From Thermoanaerobacteraceae bacterium (GTDB lineage Bacteria > Bacillota > JADQBR01): a stretch of 64,000 nucleotides of DNA. The notes under the pieces were generated by a model, which ran no database searches, had not been told where the DNA came from, and saw only the letters and a list, made by a program, of their open reading frames with translations. Positions 17,430 through 35,870 of this stretch are shown here, in pieces. The stretch is taken from contig JACDOG010000001.1 in NCBI GenBank assembly GCA_017656305.1, forward strand, positions 124,001 through 188,000, given 5' to 3'. Each line of letters opens with the position of its first letter. Position 1 is the stretch's first letter. Made by a program: the position numbers and the translations under genes.

Positions 17430-18440
17430 TTAACAAATCCGCGGCAGGTGTTCCCCCTCAAGCACTGGTAATATCCTTTTAGCCCCTAATTCAGTTTCCA
17501 CTAAAACTTTACCGGAATCATCCCTGGAAGTGACTCTGCCAATTATGCGTCCGGCTCTGCCCAGCGGGTGTTTCCTCAACACACTCATTATTTCACTTTC
17601 CTTTTCTGGCCTGGCAAAAATTAATAACTTGCCTTCATTTGCCAGGTATAAGGGATCCAAACCCAGCATGCTGCACCCGGCAGCCACTGCATGGTGTACA
17701 GGAACTGCTTCATTTAAAATTTCCATGGTCATTTTAGATTGTCTTGCAAGTTCGTAGAGGACTGAAGCAACTCCCCCGCGAGTAGGGTCCCGCATACAGG
17801 AAACTCCTCCCGTGGAAACCAGAAGTTCCGCCAAATCACTCAATGGTGCACAATCGCTAGCAATCTGCCCGCCAAGCGATAAACCTTCCCGCTGGCATAA
17901 AACGGCCATCCCATGGTCGCCAACCGTTCCACTTATTATTATCAAGTCTCCCACCGAGATTTTCGTTGGCCCCAGGGAAACCCCTTCAGGAACTATTCCA
18001 ATACCAGTTGTATTTATGAATATTTTATCGGCACTACCACGTTCCACTACCTTGGTATCACCAGTGACGACAAAAACACCGGCACTTGCTGCAGTATCCG
18101 CAAGGGAACGGAGGATTTTTTTTAAGTCTTCTACTGGAAAGCTTTCCTCTATTATTAAGCCAACGCTTAAAAATTTCGGTATCGCCCCGCAAACCGCCAA
18201 ATCATTAATGGTACCGCAGGCAGCCAGCTTTCCGATATCTCCGCCAGGAAAAAACAAGGGAGAGATAACATAACTGTCTGTTGTCATTGCAATTCTGCCG
18301 CTTTCAAGCGCTAGAAACGCCGAATCTAAAAGCTCCTGTCCGCCGTTATTGTCAAAAATAGGATAGATAATTTCTTCAATAAGCTCCCGGGACAATTCCC
18401 CCCCACTGCCGTGGGCAAGTAGAATCTTATCTCTCTTCAT
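17430..18440 (-). CDS. hypE: Hydrogenase maturation protein HypE
   Basis: A 336-residue PurM-like ATPase that dehydrates the thiocarboxamide on its own C-terminal Cys to make the cyanide ligands of the NiFe site. It begins ILLAHGSGGELSRELIEE and ends in the diagnostic PRIC, whose Cys carries the thiocyanate. ATG at 18440 behind TGGAGG, one base after the hypD stop. Last gene of the coo-hyp transcript. Confidence 0.96.
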   Translation of the reverse strand: MKRDKILLAHGSGGELSRELIEEIIYPIFDNNGGQELLDSAFLALESGRIAMTTDSYVISPLFFPGGDIGKLAACGTINDLAVCGAIPKFLSVGLIIEESFPVEDLKKILRSLADTAASAGVFVVTGDTKVVERGSADKIFINTTGIGIVPEGVSLGPTKISVGDLIIISGTVGDHGMAVLCQREGLSLGGQIASDCAPLSDLAELLVSTGGVSCMRDPTRGGVASVLYELARQSKMTMEILNEAVPVHHAVAAGCSMLGLDPLYLANEGKLLIFARPEKESEIMSVLRKHPLGRAGRIIGRVTSRDDSGKVLVETELGAKRILPVLEGEHLPRIC

Positions 18441-18441
18441 T

Positions 18442-19548
18442 TTATCGTCCTCCATTTTTAGTAAAACGGTAATATGCAGCGCAAGCTCCTTCAGAAGATA
18501 CCATACAGGGCCCTACAGGATTAAGGGGTGTGCATGCTCTACCAAACAACCTGCATTCCTGAGGCAGTTTAATTCCTTTCAAAATGTCCCCACATGCACA
18601 ATTCTTGTTGGATTCTTCTTTTTCATTAGGATATGGTTCCGGGATATTGAATTTTTTCTTAACATCATAGCCTCTAAAGTTTTCCCTTATCCTTAGACCA
18701 CTTTTAGGAATCAAACCAAGACCTCTCCACCAGGCATCCGCCGGTTCAAAAACCTTATCAATTACCTGCCTGGCAAGGGGGGCCCCCTGGGGTAAAACTC
18801 CCCTCCTGTACTGAATCTCAACGCAGGGGTTATTTTCCCTTATTTGTTCAAGAAGCATTACGAGACCCTGTAAAATGTCATGTGTTTCAAATCCTGTAAT
18901 CACACCTGCCTTATGATACTCTCGAGCAAGGAAGTAATAGGGTTCAACCCCAATAATGGTGCTAACATGTCCCGGTAAAATAAAACCATCAATCTTTACC
19001 TCTTTCTCCAACAGCAGTGCCTCCAGCACCGGAGGGACTAATTTGTGCAGAGAATAAACGGAAAAGTTTTCAATTCCTTCTTCTTGGGCCTGAATTATAG
19101 ACATTGCCACTGTCGGAGCGGTAGTTTCAAATCCGACCCCCAAAAATACCACTTCTTTACCGGGATTCTTTTTTGCCAGTTTCAGTGCATCCAGCGTTGA
19201 ATAGACTACACTTACCTTTGCCCCCTGCCCCCTGGCATCTGCTAAACTACTACCCTTTTTACCGGGAACCCGCAGCAGGTCGCCGAAGGTAGCGATAATG
19301 ACATTCCTTTGCCGAGCCAGCTCTAAATAAACCTCAATCTCACAGTCATGGGTGACACAAACCGGGCAACCGGGACCGGAAATCAATCTGATATTGTCAG
19401 GCAATAGCTGCCTGAGGCCGCTTTTACCGATGGCCATGGTATGGGCACCGCAAACTTCCATAATATTTAGCGGCTTATCCGCAGGAGCTAATCTTTCAAC
19501 CTGTTGTATTAGTTTGGCTAGTTGTTTTTTATTTGCTGTTTGCTTCAT
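18442..19548 (-). CDS. hypD: Hydrogenase maturation protein HypD
   Basis: A 368-residue iron-sulfur scaffold on which, with HypC, the Fe(CN)2CO unit is built. Visible motifs: MEVCGAHTMAIGKSG, ISGPGCPVCVT, GVGFETTAPT, LPGHVSTIIG and a C-terminal [4Fe-4S] region with Cys (NCACGDIL, ECRLFGRACTP, GPCMVSSEGACAAYY). It overlaps hypC by 20 bases. Confidence 0.97.
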   Translation of the reverse strand: MKQTANKKQLAKLIQQVERLAPADKPLNIMEVCGAHTMAIGKSGLRQLLPDNIRLISGPGCPVCVTHDCEIEVYLELARQRNVIIATFGDLLRVPGKKGSSLADARGQGAKVSVVYSTLDALKLAKKNPGKEVVFLGVGFETTAPTVAMSIIQAQEEGIENFSVYSLHKLVPPVLEALLLEKEVKIDGFILPGHVSTIIGVEPYYFLAREYHKAGVITGFETHDILQGLVMLLEQIRENNPCVEIQYRRGVLPQGAPLARQVIDKVFEPADAWWRGLGLIPKSGLRIRENFRGYDVKKKFNIPEPYPNEKEESNKNCACGDILKGIKLPQECRLFGRACTPLNPVGPCMVSSEGACAAYYRFTKNGGR

Positions 19549-19753
19549 ATAACTCCTCCAGAAAACTTATGGTTTTCTGCGCCTCCTCATTATCTATCCG
19601 TTGGATGGCATAGCCCGCATGTACCAATACCCAGTCACCTACTTTCACTTCCGGAGTTAAAGCAATTGAAATTTCCTTTGAAATCCCTTCCAGTTCAGCA
19701 ATTGCCATGGTTCCCGTTACTTTTATAACCTTAAGCGGAACTGCCAAGCACAT
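19529..19753 (-). CDS. hypC: Hydrogenase maturation chaperone HypC
   Basis: A 74-residue protein starting MCLAVPLKV; the Cys exposed after Met removal binds iron and contacts the large subunit precursor. VGDWVLVHAGYAI is the other family signature. It overlaps hypF (23 bases) and hypD (20 bases), keeping HypC and HypD production coupled. Confidence 0.96.
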   Translation of the reverse strand: MCLAVPLKVIKVTGTMAIAELEGISKEISIALTPEVKVGDWVLVHAGYAIQRIDNEEAQKTISFLEELYEANSK

Positions 19754-22058
19754 TCTTCATCACCTCGTTTCCGGCTACAGCCTGTCCCAGCGATATACCT
19801 CCGTCATTGGGAGGAATTTCCTTATGGCGGTATACCGTTATCCCCTCTTTAGCCAGTAATTCTATTACCAGTTCGGTTAATAACCTGTTTTGGAAGACGC
19901 CTCCAGATATAACCACCTTATTTAACCCGGTATTGCGGGACATATGCAGTACCCCATCCCTAATTGCCCGGGCAACCCCCATATGAAATTTATATGCCAT
20001 ACGTACAGTATCTAATCCGGATGACAAATCGGAAATAATTTGCTCCCACAATGGCGCTGTGTCCAATTCAAAGGTTAAATCTTCATTATCTTTCAGCAGT
20101 ATAGTATAAAAACCTTCCTCATGTCCGGCCATCCGGGCCCTGGCTTCCATTACCATTGGGCCCTGTCCCTCATACTTTGCTTCCTGACAGATTCCCATTA
20201 AAGCCGCAGCTGCATCAAATAACCTGCCACAGCTTGAGGTGGCTACCGAATTGATACCCTTTTTAAGCTGCACTTCCAGAACCTCAACTTCGCAAGGACT
20301 TAATCCGCTCAGCCATTTAGAAGCGTATACCCTGCCAGTTTCCCCCAGTGTGGAAAGGAGAAAGCTATATGCCATTCGCAAAGGCTTTTTTACTGAAACC
20401 TCTCCGCCCAGCAGCGGAACCTTTGCCAGGTGGCCCATACGTTCAAAAGAACTGTAGTCACCGCAGAGAAATTCAAACCCCCAAATTGTACCATCGATTC
20501 CATATCCAGTACCGTCACAGACCACTGCCATTACCCTCTCAGCTAGCCCATTTTCTGCCATACAACTGACCATATGAGAATGATGGTGCTGTACCCCTAT
20601 TACCTGCAATCCCCATTGGGACGCCAGTTCCCGAGCGTAGCGAGTGGTTTGGTAACCGGGGTGGAGATCGTGAACAAGCAATTCGGGTTTTATCCCTAGT
20701 AGAGAAATCATTTTGGAAATAGTTTTTTTGTATCTTTCAAAATTTAAGTAATTGTCCAAATCCCCTAAATGCTGACTAAGGAAAACCCGGTCTCCTTTGG
20801 CTAGGGCAAAGGTATTTTTTAGATTCCCGCCACAGGCAAGAAGCGGTGTTAACTCCCTCCTCTGCAATTGCACGGGCAACGGGACATAACCCCGGGCCCT
20901 TCTTACAGATTGCCAGGTATTTCCTACCACCATTCCTACAGAATCATCACAGGGATTTTCTATTTCCCGATTATGAAAAATGAAATAATCGGCAATACCT
21001 TTTAGTTTTTCTGCTGCTTCCTCGTTTTTAGTAATCAGCGGGTCACCGGATAAATTGGCACTTGTCATTACCAGCAAAGGAATTTCGGGAGAAAATAACA
21101 ACCAGTGAAGGGGCGTATAGGGTAACATTACTCCCAGGGTATCCAGATTGGGATTAATTTCTGTAGGAAGTTGTCCCCTGGTCTCTTCCCTTTGTTTTAA
21201 AAGCACAATTGGCCTGGCAGGACTTACCAGATACTCCTCTTCCTCAGCTGATAAATGGCAGTATTTTCTCACAGTCTCAAGGTTATAAGCCATTAAAGCA
21301 AAAGGTTTGGCATCCCTGAATTTACGCCTTCTTAACCGGGATACCGCATTTCCATCAAGAGCATTACAGGCCAGGTGAAACCCTCCTAATCCTTTTACGG
21401 CAACAATTGCACCCTCCTTAAACAGTTCCCGAAAATCTTTATTACAGAATTTACCCCGGCTATCTCTAACTTCAATTTTTGGGCCACATGCCGGGCAGGC
21501 ATTGGGCTGGGCATGAAAACGCCTGTTTGAAGGATCGTCATATTCCTGCCGGCATTGCGGGCACATGGTAAATTCCCTCATGGTGGTAAGATGCCGGTCA
21601 TAGGGAATATCTCTAATAATCGTAAACCTGGGACCGCAGTTGGTACAGTTTATAAAGGGGTAAGAAAACCTTCTGTCAGAAGGGTCCTGCAATTCAGCTA
21701 AACAGTCAGAACATATTCCCACATCCGGAGAAATTAAGACCCGTTTATCATCCTGAATACAACTTTTTTGAATAAAAAAACCAGAATACCCCTGAAAAGC
21801 AACCGGCGAGGAGTCATATCCCGTGATTTTAGCCAGCGGTGGTGGGGAAGATAACAGTTCCATTAGGGCCTGTGAAATCTTTTCCTCCTGCCCTTCCCAG
21901 TGAATAGTTACTCCCTGGCTGTTATTGAGAACCCACCCTTTTAATTGATATTTTTGGGAAAGGTTATATACATAAGGGCGAAATCCCACCCCTTGTACAA
22001 TTCCATAAACCTTTATCTCCTTCGCTGTCGCTTCCTTTCCCACTCTCTCTTTAGCCAT
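19731..22058 (-). CDS. hypF: Carbamoyltransferase HypF
   Basis: About 775 residues; makes carbamoyl-adenylate and transfers the carbamoyl group to HypE. In order: acylphosphatase domain (GIVQGVGFRPYVYN), two zinc-finger pairs (CSDCLAELQDP, CTNCGPRF, CPQCRQEYDDP, CPACGP), a YrdC-like domain and a Kae1-like domain with HHHSHM and GGVFQNRLL. The ATG at 22058 is preferred; GTG codons lie 6 and 9 bases further upstream. It overlaps hypB by 46 bases. Confidence 0.96.
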   Translation of the reverse strand: MAKERVGKEATAKEIKVYGIVQGVGFRPYVYNLSQKYQLKGWVLNNSQGVTIHWEGQEEKISQALMELLSSPPPLAKITGYDSSPVAFQGYSGFFIQKSCIQDDKRVLISPDVGICSDCLAELQDPSDRRFSYPFINCTNCGPRFTIIRDIPYDRHLTTMREFTMCPQCRQEYDDPSNRRFHAQPNACPACGPKIEVRDSRGKFCNKDFRELFKEGAIVAVKGLGGFHLACNALDGNAVSRLRRRKFRDAKPFALMAYNLETVRKYCHLSAEEEEYLVSPARPIVLLKQREETRGQLPTEINPNLDTLGVMLPYTPLHWLLFSPEIPLLVMTSANLSGDPLITKNEEAAEKLKGIADYFIFHNREIENPCDDSVGMVVGNTWQSVRRARGYVPLPVQLQRRELTPLLACGGNLKNTFALAKGDRVFLSQHLGDLDNYLNFERYKKTISKMISLLGIKPELLVHDLHPGYQTTRYARELASQWGLQVIGVQHHHSHMVSCMAENGLAERVMAVVCDGTGYGIDGTIWGFEFLCGDYSSFERMGHLAKVPLLGGEVSVKKPLRMAYSFLLSTLGETGRVYASKWLSGLSPCEVEVLEVQLKKGINSVATSSCGRLFDAAAALMGICQEAKYEGQGPMVMEARARMAGHEEGFYTILLKDNEDLTFELDTAPLWEQIISDLSSGLDTVRMAYKFHMGVARAIRDGVLHMSRNTGLNKVVISGGVFQNRLLTELVIELLAKEGITVYRHKEIPPNDGGISLGQAVAGNEVMKNVLGSSA

Positions 22059-22678
22059 AGGCACCACTCATCAATTCCCTCCCCGGAAGATGCCGACATC
22101 TGGAATATTTCAATGTTGGGATTCAAACTCAGTACATCTTCGGTAAAGTTATCCACATTAAAATTGCTATAGGGTAATAAGTCAATTTTATTTAAAATGC
22201 AAGCTTTAGCTTCTCGGAACATAACGGGGTATTTTAAAGGTTTATCATCGCCTTCGGGAACACTAATAACCACTACCTTCAAGTCATCACCCAGGTCAAA
22301 TGCGCTCGGGCATACCAGGTTACCTACATTCTCAATGATAACCAATTCTAAATTTTCAATTTCCAATTCCTGCATGGCCCGGTTAACCATATTTGCGTCC
22401 AGGTGGCAGCCACCTTCAGTATTTATCTGCACCACCGGCACCCCGTAGCGGTGAATCCTTTCCGCATCCTTGGTGGTCATCAAATCCCCTTCTATAACAC
22501 CGATTTTCAGTTCATCCTTTAATTTCGCAATAGTCCGTTCCAGAATCGTTGTTTTTCCAGCACCGGGAGAACTCATCAGGTTAATAGCAAGAATTCCATA
22601 CCTGTCAAAAAGTTCCCGGTTTACTGTCGCCAGGTCTTCGTTTCTCTTCATAATGTTTCTCAGTACCTTAATTTCCAC
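22013..22678 (-). CDS. hypB: Hydrogenase nickel-insertion GTPase HypB
   Basis: A 221-residue G3E GTPase: P-loop SSPGAGKTT, metal site residues in GGCHLD and VGNLVCPS, and base-recognition NKID. There is no His-rich nickel-storage N-terminus. The GTG at 22678 is chosen because AGGAGG sits 8 bases before it; the TTG at 22684 is too close. It works with HypA to load Ni. It lies directly after the hypA relic. Confidence 0.95.
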   Translation of the reverse strand: MEIKVLRNIMKRNEDLATVNRELFDRYGILAINLMSSPGAGKTTILERTIAKLKDELKIGVIEGDLMTTKDAERIHRYGVPVVQINTEGGCHLDANMVNRAMQELEIENLELVIIENVGNLVCPSAFDLGDDLKVVVISVPEGDDKPLKYPVMFREAKACILNKIDLLPYSNFNVDNFTEDVLSLNPNIEIFQMSASSGEGIDEWCLWLKREWERKRQRRR

Positions 22679-22690
22679 GGCCAAATCCTC

Positions 22691-22817
22691 CTACGCTCCT
22701 TCTATGGAATCCACATACAGTTCCCCATAAGATACTATCCGTTCTACCCCTCCGCCGTGCAGAGGACATGAAAGGGTTTTACTCACCTCGTATTCCGCTT
22801 CACATTTGTCTACGGAT
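22691..22817 (-). pseudogene. C-terminal relic of a second hypA
   Basis: The 125 bases between cooC and hypB hold an open stretch that cannot start normally: after an in-frame TAA overlapping the end of cooC it reads VDKCEAEYEV, then LSCPLHGGG, then ending YGELYVDSIEGA. This aligns with the zinc-ribbon tail of HypA (GKCREC..., QCPQCES, GRELYIENLEVEE in the intact copy at 26188-26532). Only one Cys of each CxxC pair remains and the Ni-binding N-terminus is gone. A GTG at 22783 could give a 31-residue peptide, but I read it as debris of hypA in an older hypAB order. Confidence 0.7.
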
Positions 22818-23604
22818 TAACACTTCCACTGCTAGTCAACCTTGCCAGTAACTGATTCTTAATTAAACTGATTTCCTCAACTATCGTGCCGCCGATATCA
22901 AAAGGAGAAACTCCTTCCAAATCAGCCTTTTTGACCTCTTCACTTAAAGAAACAAAACCCAACAATTCAAAATCAGCCAAACTATCACTTATAAATTGAA
23001 CATCCGCCTCATCACGTACTTTACTACCTACCGCAAAGACCTTTTTAATTCCAAGATCCTTAGCCAAGCTTCTGATCTGCTTAGCGGTTTGAATACTTCT
23101 CCGTCCCGGTTCTGCAACGACTATCAAAGCATCCACCGACTCAGCGGTACCTCGACCAAGATGCTCAATTCCTGCTTCCATATCCATAATTACCACATCT
23201 TCTCTTTCAATCAAGAGATGCTTCATTAATCTCTTAAGTAACGTATGTTGCGGACAAACACAACCACTACCGCCCTGTTCAACAGTGCCCATAACCAACA
23301 ATTTAACTCCCTGATGTTCCAAACAATATTTTTCGGGTAAGTCATCCACTTTAGGGTTTAAAATGAAAAAGGAACCATACCCGTCCTTTGCTCCGGTACG
23401 TTCTTCGGCTAATTTTTTCATTTTAGAAAAGGGTGTTATCTTTTTGTACTGTGCTTCAGGTATTCCCAGTGCCGAAGCCAGATTGGCATCCGGGTCAGCA
23501 TCTACAGCCAAAACCCGATATCCTTCAGAGGCTAAAAGCCGGGCTAAAGTGCCGGAAACTGTAGTTTTTCCAACTCCACCTTTACCTGTTACAGCTATTT
23601 TCAT
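22810..23604 (-). CDS. cooC: CO dehydrogenase nickel-insertion ATPase CooC
   Basis: A 264-residue MinD/ParA-type ATPase with deviant Walker A GKGGVGKTT and the metal-binding CxC in GCVCPQH (~residues 115-118). CooC dimers bind nickel and help mature the C-cluster of CooS. It follows cooS after a 67-base gap with a strong hairpin. Its stop overlaps the hypA relic, so this is the left edge of the coo block proper. Confidence 0.95.
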   Translation of the reverse strand: MKIAVTGKGGVGKTTVSGTLARLLASEGYRVLAVDADPDANLASALGIPEAQYKKITPFSKMKKLAEERTGAKDGYGSFFILNPKVDDLPEKYCLEHQGVKLLVMGTVEQGGSGCVCPQHTLLKRLMKHLLIEREDVVIMDMEAGIEHLGRGTAESVDALIVVAEPGRRSIQTAKQIRSLAKDLGIKKVFAVGSKVRDEADVQFISDSLADFELLGFVSLSEEVKKADLEGVSPFDIGGTIVEEISLIKNQLLARLTSSGSVNP

Positions 23605-23671: not shown

Positions 23672-25582
23672 TTAAATACCAAGTCCCTTACGTCTTTCCT
23701 TAATGGCAGCAACCAATTTAGCAGCAGCCTTTTCCGGATTGGTTTCTACTATAAAGTAACCGCCAAGCAAATCTCTTGCTTTTTCTGTTAAAAATTCAGC
23801 AACAACGGAAGAACCCATAATTTGTGGTACAATTCCTATATGGGTAGGTATTCCCAAAGTAACTGCCCAAGTCCCAATTGCTACTGCCTTCTCTGCCATA
23901 AGCTCAGGTGCAGAAGCTACTACCGGTAGTTTATCTAAATCTACTCCCAGCTTGTTAGCAATGGCTACAGCTACTTTAACTGCCCTAGTATTATCGACAC
24001 AAGATCCCATGTGCAATACTAAAGGTAGAGGTCCGTTAAGTCCGGCTGCCTTGCCTATGGTCGTGAGTACAGCTTTTAAGGAATCACCGGCATAAGCCTC
24101 AGTTGCCTCTTGAGTCATTAGACCATTCTTGGCAAAAGCACCGGCGCCACAACCTGTAGCTAACATTAAGACATTATTTTGGGCCAATTCTTTAGCAATA
24201 GTTATAAAGTTATTGTCTTGCGTTACCCGAGGATTGTTACAACCGGCAAACAATGCAATACCTTGAATATTACCGTTAACAATATTATCAATTAGTGGCT
24301 TTAACGGGTCTTTCGCATTTAATTTGCTTAGGGCATCTATGATTGCTTCAGCACTAAAACCTGCAATGGCTGTTTGCTTGTAGTCAGGAATGTTGACTTT
24401 ACGATTGTCCCGTCTTTTAAAGGCATCAATTGCCAGTTCAACAATCTTCTTAGCACTGTCTAATGCTGTATCTTCATGAAACTCAATGTGAGTAGCGCCA
24501 GTAATCTTGTTTACAGGCACAGTGGTAATTACTTCTGTATGGAAACATTCAGCCAGACTGGTAACGGCAGGCATAATACACTGCACGTCTACGACCATAG
24601 CATCTACAGCGCCCGTAATTAGGGCCAGTTCCTGGGACAGGTAGTTAGTAGCCAAAGGAATTCCTCGCCGCATCATTACTTCATTGCCCGTACAGCAAAT
24701 ACCCACTATATTAATACCTTCTTTAGCCCCGGCCTTCTTAGCTTCTTCATTCATCTTCAGCGCTACATCACAAACAATTTCACTGAGTATAGGGTTATGA
24801 CCGTGAACCGCAATGTTAACAGCATCTTCCTTCAGCACACCGAGGTTGGCTGCAGTAACTACCGGTTCAGGTGTGCCAAATAAGACATCAGACAGCTCAG
24901 TTGACAAATACATGCCGGTATAGTCAGCCAGCGCTCCCTTCAATCCACCGAGCAAAACGTTAACTGCATCGGCATCACAACCCACATGAGTACGGCTCAT
25001 AATCTCGGCGATAACAGCATCAATATTATGCGGCATAACCCCCAGTTCTACCAATTTGTCCACCCGCTCAGCGGTCATAGTCTCTTTGGCCCAATTACAA
25101 GGTATACTATAATTCTGACGTGAGAAATCCTCCAGGGAAGCTAAAGCCACTTCTTTTGCCACTTGCTTTATATCTTTACCTGCCGGTGCCAAGTTTAATT
25201 TTTCTGCTATACTTCTTAGCTTTTGCTCATCTTTGATCCGGTATGCAGGTGCATGTCCTTCGCCAACTTCCAATAAGGTTAAAGCTACGTGACGACCGTG
25301 ATCAGAATGCGCAGCAGCACCTGCAGCAATCATTCTGATCAAATTGCGGGCCACGATAGTATGAGCATCAGCTCCACAAACACCTTTCTGTGGTCCATTG
25401 CCAAAAGGATCGATACGACAGGGGCCCTTCCAACAAATGCGACAGCAGACTCCCAGCTCTCCGAAACCACATTGGGGCTTCATCGCTGCAAAACGATCCC
25501 AAGCAGTTTCAATTCCCGCCTTTTTTGCTAAAGGTAGCAAGTAATTGGCAGCAAGATCAGTGGTGTTGTTCATCTTACTCAT
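23672..25582 (-). CDS. cooS: Anaerobic Ni-Fe CO dehydrogenase catalytic subunit
   Basis: A 636-residue monofunctional CODH that oxidises CO with water to CO2, two electrons and two protons. The D- and B-cluster Cys are in CGFGELGVCCRICWKGPC (38-55) and Cys69. C-cluster ligands fit His262 (HGHNP), Cys296/297 (GICCTGN), Cys335 (DVQCIMP), Cys448 (FAGCNN), Cys478 (ATGCGAG) and Cys528 (HMGSCVD), so the site looks intact. No ACS subunit lies nearby. Its neighbours cooF and the cooMKLXUH hydrogenase mark it as a CODH-I type, H2-evolving enzyme. Confidence 0.97.
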   Translation of the reverse strand: MSKMNNTTDLAANYLLPLAKKAGIETAWDRFAAMKPQCGFGELGVCCRICWKGPCRIDPFGNGPQKGVCGADAHTIVARNLIRMIAAGAAAHSDHGRHVALTLLEVGEGHAPAYRIKDEQKLRSIAEKLNLAPAGKDIKQVAKEVALASLEDFSRQNYSIPCNWAKETMTAERVDKLVELGVMPHNIDAVIAEIMSRTHVGCDADAVNVLLGGLKGALADYTGMYLSTELSDVLFGTPEPVVTAANLGVLKEDAVNIAVHGHNPILSEIVCDVALKMNEEAKKAGAKEGINIVGICCTGNEVMMRRGIPLATNYLSQELALITGAVDAMVVDVQCIMPAVTSLAECFHTEVITTVPVNKITGATHIEFHEDTALDSAKKIVELAIDAFKRRDNRKVNIPDYKQTAIAGFSAEAIIDALSKLNAKDPLKPLIDNIVNGNIQGIALFAGCNNPRVTQDNNFITIAKELAQNNVLMLATGCGAGAFAKNGLMTQEATEAYAGDSLKAVLTTIGKAAGLNGPLPLVLHMGSCVDNTRAVKVAVAIANKLGVDLDKLPVVASAPELMAEKAVAIGTWAVTLGIPTHIGIVPQIMGSSVVAEFLTEKARDLLGGYFIVETNPEKAAAKLVAAIKERRKGLGI

Positions 25583-26187: not shown

Positions 26188-26532
26188 CTATTCTTCTACT
26201 TCCAAATTCTCAATGTACAATTCCCTTCCGGCAACGGTCTCTATAGATCTACTCTCACATTGTGGGCATTGAAAATTATAATTGTAAACCCGGAACACAT
26301 TGGCACACTCCCGACACTTTCCCTGCAACGGAATCCGCTCAATAACCAGCTCTGCACCCTCGACAACAGTATTTTGCGCATAAACCTCAAAACACGCGGT
26401 TAAAGTCATTGGTTCCACTGCTGTCATCTCTCCAACCTTAAGCTTCACTTTTACCACTTTTTTAATTTGGTGCTCTTTCACTTTGGCATTAATAATCTTG
26501 AAAAGACTATCCACTATTGCCATCTCATGCAT
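26188..26532 (-). CDS. hypA: Hydrogenase nickel-insertion protein HypA (intact copy)
   Basis: A 114-residue HypA: N-terminal MHE for Ni binding and a zinc ribbon with Cys73, Cys76, Cys89 and Cys92. It delivers nickel with HypB. Its place between cooH and cooF copies the order known from Carboxydothermus hydrogenoformans. The 123-base gap before it shows no gene or clear operator. A second, truncated hypA lies at the cooC-hypB junction. Confidence 0.95.
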   Translation of the reverse strand: MHEMAIVDSLFKIINAKVKEHQIKKVVKVKLKVGEMTAVEPMTLTACFEVYAQNTVVEGAELVIERIPLQGKCRECANVFRVYNYNFQCPQCESRSIETVAGRELYIENLEVEE

Positions 26533-26655: not shown

Positions 26656-27738
26656 CTATCTTTCGGTGCAAGAGATACAGGGATCAATACTACTAATAAT
26701 AAGCGGAATATCAGACACTTTATTTCCCGGCATCATAACATTGAGCGCTTCCCAATTCATATAAGTTGGTACTCGCCACTTAAGGCGTTCCGGCATATCA
26801 GTACCATTTGTGCGTAGATAATAAATCAATTCTCCCCGCGGAGCCTCTGACTTGGCTACAGCTTCCCCAGCAGGTATTTCCGGCAAATAATCAATACAAG
26901 TTGGACCGTTAGGTAATTTTTTTAGACATTGTTCAATAATATTGATAGCTTCTTGAATTTCCCTTAACCTAACTATGGCTCTTGCTCTAACATCACAACC
27001 ATTTTCTACATGAACATTAAACTTTATCTTGTCATAAGCGGCATAAGGACTCTTCACCCGCACATCATAATCTATACCAGACCCCCTGGCTACAGGACCA
27101 ACCACACCATATCGGATCGCTTCTTCTTTCGGTAAAATCCCTACACCTTCAGTCCGAGCTCGAACAAACTTATTGTTTATATAAATGTCAATAATTTCTT
27201 CCAATGGCTTTTTCAACCTGTCTATCTGCTTCATCAGATATTTAATCTTTTCATCAGACAGGTCATATTTTACGCCGCCAATGCAATTAGCAGCCAAGTC
27301 CATCCGGTTACCATAAATAGTCTCTTTGGTATCCTGGACTATCTCCCGTATCTCCATCACATGCATAAATAAGGAATCAAAACCAATGATATGCGCCAAC
27401 ATAGCAGCATTAAACAAGTTGGATGCAATCCTTTTTATTTCATCAGCGATAACCCTTAGATATTCAGCTCTTTCCGGAATTTCGATACCGGCAATCTTCT
27501 CGAGGGCCATACAATAAGTAAATGGATGGTTATTTGAACACAGCGAACAAAGACGCTCAGTTAAAGTTATATTTTGGTAAATATTGCGTCGCATTACCAA
27601 GAACTCCATACCCCGGTGTACATGCCCTGCCGTTATATCCAGGCCTACGATAGTCTCTCCTTCAACCTGTACCCGGAAATACATCGGTTCTTCTAGCGCT
27701 ACATGTAGTGGGCCTACTGGGATGGTATAAGTGCTCAT
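26656..27738 (-). CDS. cooH: CO-induced NiFe hydrogenase large subunit CooH
   Basis: A 360-residue group 4 NiFe hydrogenase large subunit related to NuoD. The four Ni ligands are in ERLCSLCSNNH (from ~residue 62) and the C-terminal DPCISCTER. The protein ends right at that motif, so there is no C-terminal peptide for a maturation protease to remove; CooH and EchE are known exceptions of this kind. ATG at 27738 overlaps the cooU stop as ATGA. Confidence 0.96.
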   Translation of the reverse strand: MSTYTIPVGPLHVALEEPMYFRVQVEGETIVGLDITAGHVHRGMEFLVMRRNIYQNITLTERLCSLCSNNHPFTYCMALEKIAGIEIPERAEYLRVIADEIKRIASNLFNAAMLAHIIGFDSLFMHVMEIREIVQDTKETIYGNRMDLAANCIGGVKYDLSDEKIKYLMKQIDRLKKPLEEIIDIYINNKFVRARTEGVGILPKEEAIRYGVVGPVARGSGIDYDVRVKSPYAAYDKIKFNVHVENGCDVRARAIVRLREIQEAINIIEQCLKKLPNGPTCIDYLPEIPAGEAVAKSEAPRGELIYYLRTNGTDMPERLKWRVPTYMNWEALNVMMPGNKVSDIPLIISSIDPCISCTER

Positions 27739-28277
27739 TTAGTATCCCCCTCCTTAGAGGTGGCTGCAAATACCTTCTCCCACAACGTTTTACTAGTTGC
27801 TCCGTTCATAGCAACTGATAAAGGAATTAATTTATTCATTATTCCTTCATCAATTGTTTCATCAAGAAACAACCTCTTTGGATTGGGATGGCCGACTACT
27901 TTAATACCATACAATTCTTGCAATTCACGTTCCGTCCAATCTGCACTTTTTAAAATCGGAGTAATGGAATTAACTTCACCACTATCACGGGGAATTTCAA
28001 TAGTAACCGTGCAGGTACAGCCATCCAGATCAAAATGATAAGCTATTTCATGAATCTCTCTCTGTTGGGCATCTTTAGTTTTATAAGCTGTAATAGTGAT
28101 CACCCGACCGCCCAAGCTTGACACAATCAAAGCAACATTAGTAATTTGGCTGTGGTCATTAATCCTACACCAGCCAGTAACCACTCCTTTAGAATCTGTT
28201 TCCCAACGCAAGGAGAATCCTTCGCCCACTGCCTGGGTTAGTTTCTCTGCAAAAATCCCCTGAATATTCCTCTCCAT
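27735..28277 (-). CDS. cooU: CO-induced hydrogenase subunit CooU (NuoC-like)
   Basis: A 180-residue subunit matching the NuoC/30-kDa family through DWTERELQELYGIKVVGHPNPKRL. It belongs to the peripheral arm between the Fe-S and NiFe subunits. The ATG at 28277 is chosen because AAAGGAGG is 7 bases upstream; a frame without a good site extends to 28331. Confidence 0.92.
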   Translation of the reverse strand: MERNIQGIFAEKLTQAVGEGFSLRWETDSKGVVTGWCRINDHSQITNVALIVSSLGGRVITITAYKTKDAQQREIHEIAYHFDLDGCTCTVTIEIPRDSGEVNSITPILKSADWTERELQELYGIKVVGHPNPKRLFLDETIDEGIMNKLIPLSVAMNGATSKTLWEKVFAATSKEGDTK

Positions 28278-28294
28278 CCTGTTTCCTCCTTTCC

Positions 28295-28792
28295 TCATCG
28301 AAGGGCTCGTTCCTGGCGGCATTTCGGGCATAAATGCCTTAATTTTTCAATATCCTCGTTAACTTGATCATGAGCTACATTCAGTAATTCAAAAGCTATC
28401 GGTACCATAGGTGTAGCACACCGAGCACAATTTACATATTTAATGAACCCTTTTTCCACATATCTGTACTTGTCCTCTTGCCTGTGAGCTGTATGATAAT
28501 CCTCGGTTAAACGAATTGCTTTAGTTGGGCAGTAATGTTCACAGAGACCGCAAAAGGCACACGTATTATGCCAAAGTATAAACTCCAGGCCACTTTTGTC
28601 GGCCACTTCCCTGATTTGGATTGCTCCACCGGCACAAACGTGCTCACACATTCGACAGGCAACACAAGCCTTGGCATTATATTTGATTTTACCTCTCAGT
28701 CCCTTGGGAACAAAAGTTTCACCGAAGGGATAAGGGTCGGTAGACGGACCTTTGAGCAAATTACGAATGGCTATTTTTAAAAATGAAGACAT
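28295..28792 (-). CDS. cooX: CO-induced hydrogenase Fe-S subunit CooX (NuoI-like)
   Basis: A 165-residue two-cluster ferredoxin: CVACRMCEHVC and CAFCGLCEHYC each bind [4Fe-4S]. Two further Cys pairs (CARC, CPKC) lie near the C-terminus and may bind a metal. It brings electrons from CooF to CooL. ATG at 28792 behind AAAGGAGGG. Confidence 0.93.
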   Translation of the reverse strand: MSSFLKIAIRNLLKGPSTDPYPFGETFVPKGLRGKIKYNAKACVACRMCEHVCAGGAIQIREVADKSGLEFILWHNTCAFCGLCEHYCPTKAIRLTEDYHTAHRQEDKYRYVEKGFIKYVNCARCATPMVPIAFELLNVAHDQVNEDIEKLRHLCPKCRQERALR

Positions 28793-28805
28793 GGGCAACC
28801 CTCCT

Positions 28806-29237
28806 TTACAGCCTGGTTTCCCAGATTTTGATGGCTTCAACTATCCCGTCAATAATCGCCTGTGGCCTGGGAGGACAGCCCGGTACATTTACATCTACCG
28901 GAATAAAGTTATCAATAGGCCCAGTAATAGCATAACTGTCTCTAAACACCCCTCCCGATATTGGACACACTCCTATGGCTACCGTTACTTTAGGATCAGG
29001 AATTTCATCGTAAAGACGCAAAACCTTTTCCTTAACCCGGGCAGTAAGAGGACCGGTAATCAAAACGATGTCGGCATGTTTTGGACTTCCACAATATTTA
29101 CAGCCTAATCGCTCAATATCGTAACGAGGGATACATGCCGTAGTTGCCAATTCCACATCACAACCATTACAGGATCCCGCATTGATGCGGTACAACCACG
29201 GTGACTTCTTGGCAATTTTTTGCAGTAGCTTTTTCAT
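28806..29237 (-). CDS. cooL: CO-induced hydrogenase small subunit CooL
   Basis: A 143-residue NuoB-like small subunit with one [4Fe-4S] cluster near the NiFe site: Cys in GSCNGCDVE, GVCPISGG and PGCPPRP. No signal peptide, so the enzyme faces the cytoplasm, as in other group 4 hydrogenases. Confidence 0.95.
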   Translation of the reverse strand: MKKLLQKIAKKSPWLYRINAGSCNGCDVELATTACIPRYDIERLGCKYCGSPKHADIVLITGPLTARVKEKVLRLYDEIPDPKVTVAIGVCPISGGVFRDSYAITGPIDNFIPVDVNVPGCPPRPQAIIDGIVEAIKIWETRL

Positions 29238-29252: not shown

Positions 29253-30218
29253 TTATCCTTGTAACAACGTCAAAATCAAGCTGATCAAAGCCAGTACTGT
29301 CGGATACTTAAGATAAAATTTAAAAGCCTGATCCATCCGTACCCGTCCTGTACTGGTGCGAACAACTGTAATAGAAATTACCATTAAAACTAAACATTTT
29401 AGGAAAAACCACAATAGGTTAAGCAAAAAATTTTCACCCATAGGTGTCGGGAAAAAGAGTGTTATGGCCAAACCCAATACCACAACCATTTTTAGGGAGG
29501 TCATTAGTTTAAATAAAGCTAAACCGGCACCGGAATATTCCAGAATAGGACCCTCGACAATTTCAGTTTCCGCCTCGGGGATATCAAAGGGAACCACCCC
29601 CATATTACCGGGAATGAAGACCAGAAAAGCCAGCAGAGCCGGCAACATGGTGTAATCAAAAAGTAATGCCCCGTTTTCCAGTTGGAACTGCACAATTTCA
29701 CTTAAAGAAAAGGTAGCTATGCCACCTGTTGCCAGTCCAACTTTCAAAGCAACGGTTACCAGCACTAGCAATAACGGCAATTCATAGGACATCATCATGA
29801 CCATTTCCCTGGAAAAGCCTATAGCCCCAAAGGGTGAACTGGAAGCAGAACCACCGATCATTAAAGCAATGGCAGGTAATGATAGCAAGTAAAGCAAAAC
29901 CAATAAATCTCCCGAATGCCCAAAACCTTGGTATACGCCAGTAATAGGTATCAGAAGCACAGCTGCCATCATCCCTGCAAACCCCAACAATGGCGCTAAC
30001 CTAAAGGCCTGTACGTGCGCGGTATCCGGTACAACCATTTCCTTCCTGATAAGTTTGACCAAGTCAATAAAGGGCTGATAGATAGGGGGGCCAATCCTCC
30101 TCTGTAATCGGGCAGCAATTTTACGGTCAATTCCTATAAGAAACAATCCAAAGAATATGGCAAACAAGCCGCCGGGAAACACCAATAAATCCAAAATTAA
30201 TTTAACAATATCCGTCAC
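29253..30218 (-). CDS. cooK: CO-induced hydrogenase membrane subunit CooK (NuoH-like)
   Basis: A 321-residue protein with about eight membrane helices. The signatures RRIGPPIYQPFIDLVKLIRKE and FDIPEAETEIVEGPILEYSG are typical of NuoH/EchB and line the junction between the hydrogenase arm and the ion pump. It lies 2 bases after cooM. Confidence 0.95.
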   Translation of the reverse strand: MTDIVKLILDLLVFPGGLFAIFFGLFLIGIDRKIAARLQRRIGPPIYQPFIDLVKLIRKEMVVPDTAHVQAFRLAPLLGFAGMMAAVLLIPITGVYQGFGHSGDLLVLLYLLSLPAIALMIGGSASSSPFGAIGFSREMVMMMSYELPLLLVLVTVALKVGLATGGIATFSLSEIVQFQLENGALLFDYTMLPALLAFLVFIPGNMGVVPFDIPEAETEIVEGPILEYSGAGLALFKLMTSLKMVVVLGLAITLFFPTPMGENFLLNLLWFFLKCLVLMVISITVVRTSTGRVRMDQAFKFYLKYPTVLALISLILTLLQG

Positions 30219-30220: not shown

Positions 30221-33200
30221 TTATACCCCCCTACCTAAGCCGGTAATCTGGTATAGAATTTTAATGCATTGTTTTACCAATCTTTTTGGCGATTCATAAA
30301 GATTATGCGAATTAACATGCACCTCTTCGGCTGTTAAATCAGTTACCCCACAAGTATAGATTTTTGTATATCTGATTTTCCCATTGCCAATAAAGTAGAC
30401 ACTAACACCTGCAATAAGGGCTATTGCCAATAGTACCGCGATAACTCCGGCATTCCAAGCTCCCAGACTGGAATCAACCCCGAAAAGTGAAGCTGAAACC
30501 GGTGTAAGGCCCAACCAGCTCTCTATGGCAGCAATAGTAGTTAGTGGTATTCCCGGGAATACACCGAAAACCACACACAAAACAGCCAAAATTGTCATAG
30601 GAATTTGCATTGTCCAAGGAGCTTCAGTTACATTCTCTAACTCCTCAGGTAATTGCCCGAAAAAGGCAGAATGTAAAAACTTAACAAACGAAGCTAAGGT
30701 CAAAACACTAGCCAACAAAGAGAGCAAAGCTAAAAACACATATCCTTTCTCCATGGCAGCTTCATAGATTATCCATTTAGAGGTAAATCCATTAAATGGC
30801 GGGATACCGGCAATAGAAAATGCCCCTATCGCAAAGACCCCGAGAGTTACCGGCATTTTCCTGCCAATTCCTCCCAATCTATCCAGGTTCTCAATACCGG
30901 TCTTCACCATAATGGCACCGGCAACTAAAAATAGTAGGTTCTTAAACAGCATATGGTTAACTAAATGCAATAAACCTCCGGCCACTCCTAAAGAAGATCC
31001 CAAGCTGACTCCTAAGATGATATAGCCCATTTGACTCACTGTATGATAAATAAGCAGGCGCTTCATACCACTTTGCAACAGAGCCAGTGCAGCAGCCATT
31101 ACAATAGTTAAGGCACTTATCCAGGCAACTGTATACATCAGGCTGGGCATGTCTCCTGCCAGACCAAACTTGCTTATAAGAGCAACGCCACCGAAAACAT
31201 AGAATAATTTAGCCATCCCAAAAGGCGCACTTTTTAAAAGTACAGAAGAAATATAACCACTGACCGGTGTTGGTGCAGTTGGCGGATGCATTTGATAGTC
31301 GATGCGGAAAGGTAGCATAGCTGCCTTCATTGCAAAGCCAAGCAACATCAAGATCAAGCCAAAAGCCACAAGACCTGTCGGCAAATCACTTAACCGCCCG
31401 GCCAGCTCAACCATCTCAAAGGTACCGGTCTTAGCTGTTAATACAAGTAGTCCTAAAAACATCAAACTGGCTCCAACATAATTAAAAATAAAGTATTTGA
31501 AACCTTCCCGTAATGCCTCCTGGGTTTCCTCATGAATAATCACAAAGTACAGAGTCCAGCTGCTCATGATTTCCCAGAAAGCAAAGAAACTGAAGAGATC
31601 TTTGCTCACCGCCACACCCAGAAGGCCGCCAATCATTAAAACAAAGAACGCGTAAAAACGACTTTGGGCATGTCCATGATCCATATAACCCAATGAGTAG
31701 AGTAAATTTAAAACTCCAATAAAGGCAATAAGTAAAGCAAAACTCCACGAAAAAACGTCAAGACCGGAAAATGCAGTATATACTGTTATCAATGTTGCCC
31801 CCATTGTCACAACTGCTAACCAGCCGCTGACCTTGGCCGAACGTCTTCCCAAAAGGTAAGTAACCAGAGCACCTACCATCGGAATTACCGCAACCATAGG
31901 CCAAACGATGGAAACATTGGGAATAGCAGTTACAACCATTTGTCCTTTAGCTGCAATCAAATCAGCCACCGGCTTAACCAAAGCCATGCCTGCTTGCGGG
32001 TACAAGCCATTAAAAACAGTCAAACCCGTTAGGATCCCAATTGGAATCAACATGGTAACTGGAGCTTCCTTAAGAGCAGGGCCCTCATACTTTTCAAAGA
32101 AGATAATCCTAACTAATTTCAGGTAATAAAAACCGCCAATAATACTACCCACAAGGATTAAACCTGCCAATGCCAAATGACCGGCTTGTACACTGGCATA
32201 AAGCATTAAGAATTTACTGATAAACCCGTTGAAAGGCGGCAAGCCCATAATGGCCAAAACACCAATACTAAAACATAAAGCCGTTACAGGCATTACCCGG
32301 CCGATACCTTTGAACTTAGTGATTTCCTGACTCTTTAAGCGAAAGATTAAAGCACCCACAGCCAAGAATAGGAGGTTTTTCATAATAGCATGATTCAAAA
32401 CATGATAAAGGGCACCAATAAGACTCAAATAAGTACCTATTCCCAAAGTAATTACTATCTCCCCCACCTGGGCCATAGTTGAATAAGCCAACATCTTTTT
32501 AATGTCGGTCTGCTGAAGTGCCATAATTTCACCGACCAAAAGTGTCAGCGCCCCAAGCATGGAGATAATAAATCCAATGGTAGAAAACTGACCGGTAGTA
32601 CCCAACTTAGTAAGTAAACCTATACCAAAAACACCAAAGAGAATACGTACCAAACCATAAATACCAGTTTTGGTCAAAATACCTGACATTGGCGCCGAAA
32701 TAGATGAAGGTGCCGCAGGGTGAGCATCAGGTAACCAGCTATGCAACGGCACCAAGCCTGTTTTGACACCAAGACCAATAACAAACATTCCTAACACTGC
32801 CAACATAAGACTTGGAGATAATACCTGTAAGTTTGCGGAAATTGCCGCCATATCAAAGCTTCCAAGTTTTACATGCAAAGTTAAAATTGCAAGATGCATA
32901 ATGTAAGCTCCGGAAGTACTCATAATAAAATATTTGAAACCGGCCCGCAGAGCTTTTTGAGTTTGCTCATGAATAACCAAAAAGTAAGAAGTCCAAGTCA
33001 TTAATTCCCAGAAGACATAAAAATCCCCCAACTCTTTGCTGGTTGTCAAACCCAATAAAGCACCTAACATTAAGAGTAAGAAGAAAAAGTAACGGTTTGT
33101 ATACTGCTTACCCTTAAAATAACCCACAGAGTAAAGAGTGACTAAGAAACCGATAAAGGCCATAATCAGAGCAAAAAATTTTGACAGACTGTCAAAATCG

Positions 33201-34045
33201 CCACCTTGCCAAGCCAAGTATACTGTTATACCGGTAATGATAACCGCCAACAAATTTCGCAAGTCCGGCGAAAAACGCCCTACAAGATAAACTATAAACC
33301 CACCTACATAAGGAACGAGAACCAAGGTGGACCAAGGCGATTCAAAAACAGGCAATTGTTCCAGACCCGCATTCCCTAATAATATGGCAGCAGCATGCTC
33401 TGCACTGTGAATGAAAGGCTTCGGAAATAAACCCATAAAAGCAGTCATACCGCTCAGGACCAGCAAAACTGCCATCAAAGCAGGAGAAGTTTCTCTGACT
33501 TTTTTTACTCCCGCCACCTCTTGGACTGGTTTTTCGAAACATAGCCTTTGAATTACCAGAAGGAAATACACTGCCTCAATAATACTGCCTAAAGTACCTA
33601 TAGCAGCATAAGTCCAGTAACCACCCTGAATAGCTGCATAAATAATTAAAAATTTACTAATAGAACCCTTAAATGGTGATAAGCCCATTACTGAAAACAA
33701 ACCAAAACCAAACAAGGTTGCTATAACAGGCATGGTCTTACCTATCCCTTTGAGCTTTTCGATACTATAAGAGCGCTCTCGCGCAATAAATGCTGCTGCA
33801 GCAAAAAAGACCAGCCCCCGCATTACAACTTGGTATTCCAAATGCAGCAGAGCTCCTGAGATACCTTCATAAGTACCCATACCAAGTCCCAGTAAAACAT
33901 ACCCGATTTCAGCAATACTGGAAATAATCAGTAATCGGATTAGGTTTTTCATCTGCTTCAATGCAACTAGTTCACCAACCAACAGAACTATTACACCAAA
34001 TAAAGCTATCATAGATGACCCATTAATTAGAAAACCAAAATCCAC
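30221..34045 (-). CDS. cooM: CO-induced hydrogenase giant ion-pump subunit CooM
   Basis: A ~1274-residue membrane protein made of antiporter-like (NuoL/M/N) repeats. Three PF(N/K)G(F/S)(I/T)SK motifs mark the ends of one partial and two full modules. FWELMTWTSYF and FWEIMSSWTLYF carry the conserved Glu, and VKTGLVPLHSWLPDAHPAAP gives the Lys/His path of the middle module. In the last module the corresponding stretch is MKAAMLPFRIDYQMHPPTAP. It should couple H2 formation to H+ or Na+ export. The GTG at 34045 is chosen because AGGAGG lies 5-6 bases before it. First gene of the operon, behind a CooA box. Confidence 0.95.
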   Translation of the reverse strand: MDFGFLINGSSMIALFGVIVLLVGELVALKQMKNLIRLLIISSIAEIGYVLLGLGMGTYEGISGALLHLEYQVVMRGLVFFAAAAFIARERSYSIEKLKGIGKTMPVIATLFGFGLFSVMGLSPFKGSISKFLIIYAAIQGGYWTYAAIGTLGSIIEAVYFLLVIQRLCFEKPVQEVAGVKKVRETSPALMAVLLVLSGMTAFMGLFPKPFIHSAEHAAAILLGNAGLEQLPVFESPWSTLVLVPYVGGFIVYLVGRFSPDLRNLLAVIITGITVYLAWQGGDFDSLSKFFALIMAFIGFLVTLYSVGYFKGKQYTNRYFFFLLLMLGALLGLTTSKELGDFYVFWELMTWTSYFLVIHEQTQKALRAGFKYFIMSTSGAYIMHLAILTLHVKLGSFDMAAISANLQVLSPSLMLAVLGMFVIGLGVKTGLVPLHSWLPDAHPAAPSSISAPMSGILTKTGIYGLVRILFGVFGIGLLTKLGTTGQFSTIGFIISMLGALTLLVGEIMALQQTDIKKMLAYSTMAQVGEIVITLGIGTYLSLIGALYHVLNHAIMKNLLFLAVGALIFRLKSQEITKFKGIGRVMPVTALCFSIGVLAIMGLPPFNGFISKFLMLYASVQAGHLALAGLILVGSIIGGFYYLKLVRIIFFEKYEGPALKEAPVTMLIPIGILTGLTVFNGLYPQAGMALVKPVADLIAAKGQMVVTAIPNVSIVWPMVAVIPMVGALVTYLLGRRSAKVSGWLAVVTMGATLITVYTAFSGLDVFSWSFALLIAFIGVLNLLYSLGYMDHGHAQSRFYAFFVLMIGGLLGVAVSKDLFSFFAFWEIMSSWTLYFVIIHEETQEALREGFKYFIFNYVGASLMFLGLLVLTAKTGTFEMVELAGRLSDLPTGLVAFGLILMLLGFAMKAAMLPFRIDYQMHPPTAPTPVSGYISSVLLKSAPFGMAKLFYVFGGVALISKFGLAGDMPSLMYTVAWISALTIVMAAALALLQSGMKRLLIYHTVSQMGYIILGVSLGSSLGVAGGLLHLVNHMLFKNLLFLVAGAIMVKTGIENLDRLGGIGRKMPVTLGVFAIGAFSIAGIPPFNGFTSKWIIYEAAMEKGYVFLALLSLLASVLTLASFVKFLHSAFFGQLPEELENVTEAPWTMQIPMTILAVLCVVFGVFPGIPLTTIAAIESWLGLTPVSASLFGVDSSLGAWNAGVIAVLLAIALIAGVSVYFIGNGKIRYTKIYTCGVTDLTAEEVHVNSHNLYESPKRLVKQCIKILYQITGLGRGV

Positions 34046-34112: not shown

Positions 34113-34128
34113 TGTCGGGTAAACGATA
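34113..34128 (-). promoter_or_regulatory. CooA binding site before cooM
   Basis: TGTCG-N6-CGATA, one base from a perfect palindrome and close to the R. rubrum CooA consensus TGTCA-N6-CGACA. It lies ~68 bases before the chosen cooM start, at a distance suited to an activator overlapping the -35 region. The -10 downstream is weak (GTTAAA near 34092), as expected for an activator-dependent promoter. Confidence 0.7.
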
Positions 34129-34284
34129 TTTCTTCAAAAAATTAAATTCAACAATTTTTTTGTTTATTGCGACAATAGCCTTTTACAAATTTTTATAGCC
34201 CTTAAATCGTAAAGTTTTTGAAAAGAAATACGCTAAACACATCCAACTTAACAAGAAATTCTCTACATGGGGTGATAAAATTGA

Positions 34285-34395
34285 TCGGACTTGCTGGTTG
34301 CTGATGAGACATGGATGAAAGTGAAACGATGTCAGTTCACTTACTGCGTGCAATTAATAAACACCATTTTTAGTAAGCCCGAGGATATACGATGA
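34285..34395 (+). pseudogene. Possible fragment of a second DDE transposase
   Basis: The plus strand reads DLLVADETWMKVKR in one frame, then a stop. ADET(W/Y)xK is typical of DDE transposases of the IS6-like groups, not of the IS1182 relic that follows. Short and without a start, so this is tentative. Confidence 0.35.
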
Positions 34396-35155
34396 CTTGG
34401 TTTTATAAGTAAAAGACCTATGCAGTAAGAACAATGGAAGGCCAAGCATAGATCCAGTAGTGCTAATTAAGCTGATTAAGCCCTGTATGGAATACGATCC
34501 ATGCGGCAAACCATCAAAGAAGCGGAAGTCAACGTAGCATACCGCTGGTTTATTGGCTATGGACTGTAGGAAAAGATTATATATTTTTCAACATTTGGAG
34601 AGAATTATGAAAGGCGGTTTAAGGAAAGCGACCTGTTTGAAAAGATTTTCGTACGGGTAATGATGGAAGCTATTGAATGGGGCTTTTTCAAAATCAAATC
34701 AGATGCGGTACTATCGATGCAACTCATGTAAAAGCCAGTGCCAATAAAAAAAAGAAGAGGGCTCAAAACCGAGCCCACAAATATAAACGCGCTCTCATGA
34801 TTGAAATAAACGTTGATCGGGAAGTACACAGCAAAAAAACTTTAAAAATGATGATGATAACAAAGATGGCAGCAGTTCCGCTGGCAGTGGAGAAAAACAA
34901 ATCAAGGAAAGTACTTGTACAAAAAGCGTGGGGAAACCATAGAGCGAGTCTTTGCAGATGCCAAAGTTAAACATGAGATGCGTTACACGCATTGCAGGGC
35001 TTGAGGAAAGTACAACATTACCTCACGATTCTTTTTGCATGCATGAAAAACGCGGCATGTTGCCACCGGCAACACCCGCTTTTCGTTCTATTTTCTCTGG
35101 CTTTAATAAAATTATTAACTTCAATAAAACACCGTTTCCAAGCCATTCGGCCTAA
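34388..35155 (+). pseudogene. Decayed IS1182-family transposase
   Basis: Pieces of one transposase appear in order on the plus strand but in changing frames. These are NNGRPSIDPVVLIKLI, YGIRSMRQTIKEAEVNVAYR, FSTFGENYERRFKESDLFEKIF, IDATHVKASANKKKK, GETIERVFADAKVKHEMRYT and GLRKVQHYLTILFACM. Several frameshifts and stops break it. The central catalytic part between the EKQIKEST region (~34900) and RGETIERVF (~34930) is missing, so it is dead. It lies between cooM and cooA, on the opposite strand to every other gene here. Confidence 0.85.
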
Positions 35156-35201
35156 AAGGGGTTTTTGTCTTCAACCTGAAACGAAAACGTATTTTCGCTT
35201 C

Positions 35202-35870
35202 TTAACTAGAAACCTGATTTATCCCCTGCAATTTTTTTAAATCTTTAATCAAAATAGTTCGTCGGTTTACTTTTTCTAAAATGCCCGACTTTTGCAGATC
35301 ATTTAAAAGAACTGAAACTGTTTGACGGGTAGCTCCTACCATAAGAGCAATTTCTTCAGTAGTTAAGCCCAGCTCTAACTTAATTCCCTGCTGTACCGGT
35401 ATTCCTATGTCTTCCGCAGCCTGAACTAAAAATTCAGCCAGCCTTAAGTGAGTCTCTTTAAAAACCAAACTATTAATTATGGTAAATGAGCTTTTCAATA
35501 AATCCCCCAATACTTTAACCATATTCAAAGCAAAAACAGGAGAATTAACAACAATCTTTTGGAAATTGCGGACATCGGTAACCAATATAGTTGTATCTTC
35601 CATAGCCTGAATAACGGCTCTAGTATGTGTACTGAAGACATCACCTGGACTCAAAATAGAGAGGGTAAATTCCTTATCTTCATAAGCCAGATAAAGCCTA
35701 ACCTTCCCGTGCTTTACTAAAAATACCAAATTTTTCTCATCGTTCGGTAAATAGAGAATTTCCTTTTTAGCAAACCGACGTTCCTGAAACTCTTCCAAGA
35801 ACTCGGCATACTCCGGGGAATTCAAAGTTTCCAACAAGTCGACGTCTGTTAACCTCATTCTGGCTGGCAT
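35202..35870 (-). CDS. cooA: CO-sensing transcription activator CooA
   Basis: A 222-residue Crp/Fnr-family protein closely resembling Carboxydothermus CooA (MRLTD...LLETLNSPEY, LAYEDKEFTLSILSPGD, ...QAMEDTTIL). Heme ligand His82 lies in FSTHTRA. Position 80, a Cys in the relatives I recall and the ferric-heme ligand in R. rubrum, is Ser here. The N-terminus is MPAR, so after Met removal Pro2 could be the second ligand, as in R. rubrum. The HTH (TTEEIALMVGATRQTVSVLL) recognises the cooM operator. ATG at 35870 is chosen for GAGGGGGAAGG upstream. Confidence 0.93.
   Translation of the reverse strand: MPARMRLTDVDLLETLNSPEYAEFLEEFQERRFAKKEILYLPNDEKNLVFLVKHGKVRLYLAYEDKEFTLSILSPGDVFSTHTRAVIQAMEDTTILVTDVRNFQKIVVNSPVFALNMVKVLGDLLKSSFTIINSLVFKETHLRLAEFLVQAAEDIGIPVQQGIKLELGLTTEEIALMVGATRQTVSVLLNDLQKSGILEKVNRRTILIKDLKKLQGINQVSS

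Follow-up and report, generated by a model that had tools for sequence, protein, structure and literature searches.

Among the closest described systems, the coo locus of Carboxydocella thermautotrophica (PMC6085454) combines the gene order cooMKLXUH-hypA-cooFSC with a CooA box, and has its cooA separated from cooM by an additional cooSC operon. The CODH-I/ECH locus of Carboxydothermus (C. islandicus, L054) has cooA upstream of cooMKLXUH-hypA-cooFS, with cooC located between cooA and cooM. The hypB-F genes are not attached to the coo genes in either of these loci. In the proteobacterium Rubrivivax gelatinosus CBS, a second hyp set is found among the coo genes (coo-hyp1) and was proposed to mature the CO-linked hydrogenase, whereas the coo-less strain IL144 is without this block, for which the authors favoured loss in IL144 (PMC4257681).

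Within the window (the whole stretch of 64,000 nucleotides that was analysed), we identified an 18.7-kb CO-to-H2 block arranged as a single minus-strand run, cooA-cooMKLXUH-hypA-cooFSC-hypBFCDE, between pgsA and the recA side. Its coo part resembles that of Carboxydocella, at 85-95% protein identity, but has no extra cooSC operon and is joined directly to hypB-F; the Rubrivivax locus differs from it in hyp gene order and in having RcoM instead of CooA. The best explanation, with a probability of roughly 0.8, is that the block represents an acquired CooA-controlled coo module with its own hyp set, fused once and inserted at pgsA.

Gene content of the CO-to-H2 block

Every named gene is an open reading frame in its described place on the minus strand; the run begins with the cooA start codon (ATG, 35870) and closes with hypE, which ends at 17430:

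35202..35870, minus strand: cooA, CO-sensing CRP/FNR-type activator (59-96% identity to CooA of coo clusters)
30221..34045, minus strand: cooM, antiporter-like membrane subunit (83-93% identical to the CooM proteins of Carboxydothermus, Carboxydocella and Desulforamulus putei)
29253..30218, minus strand: cooK, NuoH-like membrane subunit (homology and family models)
28806..29237, minus strand: cooL, small hydrogenase subunit (92-98% identity and family model)
28295..28840, minus strand: cooX, ferredoxin-like subunit (homology and family models)
27735..28331, minus strand: cooU, NuoC-like subunit (homology and family models)
26656..27738, minus strand: cooH, NiFe catalytic subunit (RLCSLC and C-terminal DPCISCTER motifs, the NiFe-binding CxxC pairs)
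26188..26532, minus strand: hypA of the coo part (NCBIfam TIGR00100, above cut-off)
25607..26170, minus strand: cooF, iron-sulfur electron carrier (80-87% identical to the CooF proteins of close coo clusters)
23672..25582, minus strand: cooS, Ni-CO dehydrogenase (TIGR01702, 770.8 bits; B-, C- and D-cluster cysteine motifs)
22810..23604, minus strand: cooC, nickel-insertion ATPase (88-92% identical to the CooC proteins of Carboxydocella and D. putei)
22013..22678, minus strand: hypB (TIGR00073)
19731..22067, minus strand: hypF (TIGR00143)
19529..19753, minus strand: hypC (TIGR00074)
18442..19548, minus strand: hypD (TIGR00075)
17430..18455, minus strand: hypE (TIGR02124)

These genes, together with the IS1182 remnant described below, account for all coding frames of the block. 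Most of the encoded proteins are 80-98% identical to the products of coo genes from Carboxydocella, Carboxydothermus and D. putei, and CooS, CooH, CooC and CooA all retain intact active-site motifs. CooS, HypA, HypB, HypD, HypE and HypF passed the NCBIfam equivalog cut-offs and HypC passed a subfamily model, while profile searches placed CooM, CooK, CooL, CooX, CooU and CooH in complex-I/Ech families, as expected for these subunits. The cooA product has Pfam CRP domains and both Pro2 and His82. For cooM, the longest frame opens at 34087, with the Shine-Dalgarno sequence favouring a start at 34045. CooH terminates at DPCISCTER and has no C-terminal tail; an endopeptidase gene is therefore not expected, given what is known of Ech/CooH enzymes. 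With cooMKLXUH including the CxxC pairs of CooH, cooS with its ligand motifs, cooF, cooC, and CooA accompanied by a CooA box with one mismatch before cooM, the block belongs by its gene content to a known kind of system, the coo-type CO dehydrogenase/energy-converting hydrogenase. It should be noted that six loci in the genome, on contigs C1, C14, C20, C5, C22 and C17, match the Ni-CODH/hybrid-cluster (Prismane) family, the one on C17 being short (449 aa).

The sequence-only reading had described a self-contained CO-to-H2 island flanked by rodZ-rimO-pgsA on one side and thpR-recA-recX-rny-spoVS on the other, and the genes, their order and strand and both flanks were found accordingly. It had also taken the gene order as a copy of that in Carboxydothermus. 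This holds for cooMKLXUH-hypA-cooFS; however, cooC follows cooS, as in Carboxydocella, instead of lying between cooA and cooM, so that the two orders differ in this point.

The coo-hyp junction and predicted control by CooA

A second, complete hypABFCDE set is present on contig C14 of the same genome, about 5 kb before the large subunit gene of another NiFe hydrogenase. The hypB-F genes of the two sets are 62-70% identical and the hypA genes 43%. The location of the second set near another hydrogenase suggests that the island set is probably dedicated to CooH under CO, by analogy with the proposal for Rubrivivax. The other HypA of the genome also allowed us to recognize a relic between cooC and hypB:

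22691..22786, minus strand: C-terminal remnant of hypA, the coo-hyp fusion scar (alignment to the genome's other HypA)

The 31-aa frame in question aligns to the C-terminus of the other HypA with a score of 93, compared with at most 39 in 1000 shuffles; its interpretation as an unknown peptide was rejected because of this match, Pfam being silent on the frame. In D. putei, the same remnant is found at the identical site, and a third genome, K_7_2_bin.50, has a shorter one. This common scar indicates that hypA was truncated on joining cooC, whose cluster already had a hypA gene, and thus that a hypABFCDE operon was joined to cooC, with most of its hypA lost, before the module spread. As both the junction and the scar are shared across genomes, coo and hyp appear to have fused once and moved as one unit, which would have spread in one piece and now resides in at least three genomes. 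Two separate insertions of coo and hyp at the same site could be imagined from the coo loci of Carboxydocella and Carboxydothermus, which are without hypB-F and have hypD elsewhere in the genome, but this scenario is already contradicted by the identical junction and scar at another chromosomal site in D. putei, as well as by a single repeat pair that brackets both parts together (see below), and we regard it as highly improbable.

On the HypD tree, the three island copies group together (94/98) beside the hyp genes of complete sets and at a distance from the hypC-hypD genes located behind coo in other Bacillota, indicating that coo-hyp linkage arose more than once. Some of the hypB-F genes are found near coo in 26 of the 80 named coo loci, and all five flank coo in three of them (two Rhizobiales bacteria and a Rhizobium); for the coo cluster of Sporomusa carbonis, hypB-F are named in a figure legend (PMC12003927). 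The direct join of coo to hypB-F, which had been singled out as unusual, is thus real but less exceptional than supposed, given D. putei, the Rhizobiales and Rhizobium loci and Rubrivivax.

Three further elements bear on transcription of the block:

34148..35177, plus strand: decayed IS1182-family transposase remnant, frameshifted (NCBIfam IS1182 model, E 2.6e-24)
34113..34128, minus strand: CooA-box-like site TATCG-TTTACC-CGACA before cooM (one mismatch to consensus; conserved position)
17280..17304, minus strand: terminator-like hairpin behind hypE and the right repeat (similar hairpin after pgsA in genome G001)

The 1.1-kb gap between cooA and cooM contains the IS1182 remnant, which separates the two genes and lies upstream of the CooA box of cooM, leaving the box untouched. 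The remnant was detected by a search of all frames with NCBIfam, Pfam being empty on it; it has a single copy in the genome, is absent from D. putei and corresponds to the unaligned 1.03 kb between two blocks of D. putei homology. A composite transposon was rejected, as there are no paired IS elements at the ends of the block and the sole IS trace is internal and single-copy. The CooA-box pattern was found seven times in the window versus 3.6 expected, and the pattern alone is therefore not above chance; we accepted the site before cooM because of its conserved position, its distance to cooM being about equal in D. putei, K_7_2_bin.50, Carboxydocella and two further genomes (G004 and G059). 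A search for Rex sites gave no excess. On visual comparison with the two Carboxydocella promoters, the one before cooM in the window looks closer to that of the additional cooSC operon than to that of cooM, which suggests that loss of cooSC brought cooM behind the promoter of the cooSC operon.

We infer that the block is active, induced by CO and transcribed as a single message. CO-bound CooA would activate the promoter ahead of cooM, and read-through would yield one coo-hyp transcript ending at the terminator behind hypE. CO would be oxidised by CooS, matured by CooC, and the electrons handed by CooF to the membrane hydrogenase CooMKLXUH, the NiFe site of which would be built by HypA-F, with H2 release coupled to ion pumping. 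A promoter of its own, independent of CO, would make hypBFCDE a mere neighbour of coo, and the 131-nt gap with the hypA remnant between cooC and hypB would fit with this; however, a scan of this gap, where a terminator together with a separate CO-independent promoter had been named as counter-evidence to the island, revealed neither a terminator-like nor a sigma-70-like promoter site, and K_7_2_bin.50 has a CooA-type promoter attached to cooC-hyp, all of which makes separate control of hypBFCDE improbable.

Gene transfer and the pgsA insertion site

About 17.6 kb of the module is 93-95% identical at the DNA level to the coo-hyp cluster of D. putei DSM 12395 (L053, L141), with alignment blocks at 36026-35178 (95%) and 34147-17375 (93%). 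The two clusters share their gene order and the hypA scar, whereas that of D. putei occupies another chromosomal site, has an IS5-type transposase upstream (found by NCBIfam on all frames of the flank, Pfam being empty on one frame) and contains no IS between cooA and cooM. The match to the D. putei cooA gene (L053:2801-3480) is split into two pieces that overlap, which suggests that the gene is frameshifted in that genome. RecA shares no more than 77% identity with its D. putei counterpart, compared with 85% and 82% for those of two same-family genomes, and the high DNA identity of the module despite this distance argues that it was shared with another lineage by horizontal transfer. On the CooH tree alone, the branching among the window, Carboxydocella, K_7_2_bin.50 and D. 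putei is not resolved. Our literature search returned nothing direct on a mobile coo element or on the coo genes of D. putei.

Both same-family genomes have the order selU-rodZ-rimO-pgsA-[orf209-FtsH-like-phosphoesterase]-recA-recX; coo, hyp and cinA genes are all missing from the interval, which thus displays the empty target site. Absence of cinA from the interval of the window, reported in the sequence-only reading, was confirmed (another contig carries a CinA-domain frame of 182 aa), but its connection with the island was not: cinA is located elsewhere in both coo-less relatives, so that its absence here is a family trait, uninformative on the island, and displacement of cinA by the island was rejected. 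Coo-less relatives lacking cinA and carrying hyp genes in this interval had been expected to speak against the island; the former part applies to the two genomes and the latter does not. The pair of orf209 and FtsH-like genes (15185-17279 in the window) also occurs in another genome (G085, L048:16520-18452), where it precedes an Ech-hyp cluster by about 0.6 kb, possibly by coincidence.

The module is bracketed by an imperfect direct repeat, the copies of which sit just outside the limits of D. putei homology:

36092..36131, minus strand: left copy of the 40-bp direct repeat (family D3), comprising the last pgsA codons, the stop codon and 10 nt
17321..17360, minus strand: right copy of the 40-bp direct repeat, probably the displaced pgsA 3' end

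The two copies match at 35 of 40 positions, while the best match among 2902 randomly drawn pairs of 300-nt stretches is 31 of 40, and the 25-nt core, allowing three mismatches, occurs in the genome only at these two places. A direct repeat is thus present at both ends, with one copy restoring the 3' end of the target gene. The right copy ends in TAA followed by a terminator, as behind pgsA in G001; it looks like the displaced native pgsA end, and the hairpin at 17280..17304 is probably the original pgsA terminator. These features point to insertion of the module at the pgsA 3' end, which would have left the repeat behind. An ancestral block at this site, lost in the two relatives, would explain the D. 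putei similarity by slow evolution, and the family sample of only three genomes leaves some room for it; however, 93-95% DNA identity against 77% identity of RecA proteins, the unrelated neighbours of the module in D. putei and K_7_2_bin.50, and the repeats at both ends make this scenario very unlikely.

Integrases that target gene ends restore the 3' end on one side and leave the displaced end on the other. No integrase or recombinase gene was found among the coding frames of the block, which we therefore do not classify as a mobile element but only as resembling one. A search of 399 genomes of the phylum revealed no donor of the repeat, except for one chance match inside argC, and the exact repeat core does not occur in the other loci fetched. 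With neither an integrase gene left nor a donor sequence, we infer the mechanism of integration, giving even odds to the formation of the repeat by a site-specific recombinase. Another origin of the repeat, by duplication of the pgsA end in place or by its recombination with a donor pgsA end, is a serious contender that falls just short of even odds: it agrees with the missing integrase and donor, but it does not readily account for one copy restoring the pgsA 3' end while the other is the displaced end with its terminator.

In K_7_2_bin.50 (L139, L140), where the module adjoins purF and thiamine genes, the order promoter-cooM stub-cooC-hypBFCDE-cooA-promoter-cooM...cooS is a cyclic permutation with a duplicated CooA-type promoter, such that a second CooA-box-like site heads cooC-hypBFCDE. 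Either a circular intermediate or a tandem duplication followed by complementary deletions would explain this arrangement best. One may go further and take the whole CO-to-H2 chain, together with its genes for cofactor assembly, for a mobile unit that integrates site-specifically and excises as a circle, either today or until recently; the pgsA repeats would then be its att sites, and the K_7_2_bin.50 order would have been left by an intermediate in circular or tandem form. This idea is speculative and rather unlikely.

Evolutionary anatomy of the coo-hyp unit

The biochemistry predicted for the block is ordinary for hydrogenogenic carboxydotrophs, and what is new here is the history of the unit. 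The patchy distribution of hydrogen-producing CO metabolism is usually credited to horizontal transfer, with neither the unit nor its boundaries known. The locus described here supplies precise ends for a transferred unit and an empty site in relatives, and the common fusion scar dates the joining of coo and hyp before the transfers. The whole block would thus be a horizontally acquired CooA-controlled module for CO-to-H2 respiration, illustrating how a newcomer hydrogenase may arrive with its own maturation set, and K_7_2_bin.50 provides a natural case of a CooA-type promoter attached to hyp genes. The value of the locus lies in this evolutionary anatomy: a common scar, a hyp-attached promoter in one genome and a bounded insertion at pgsA.
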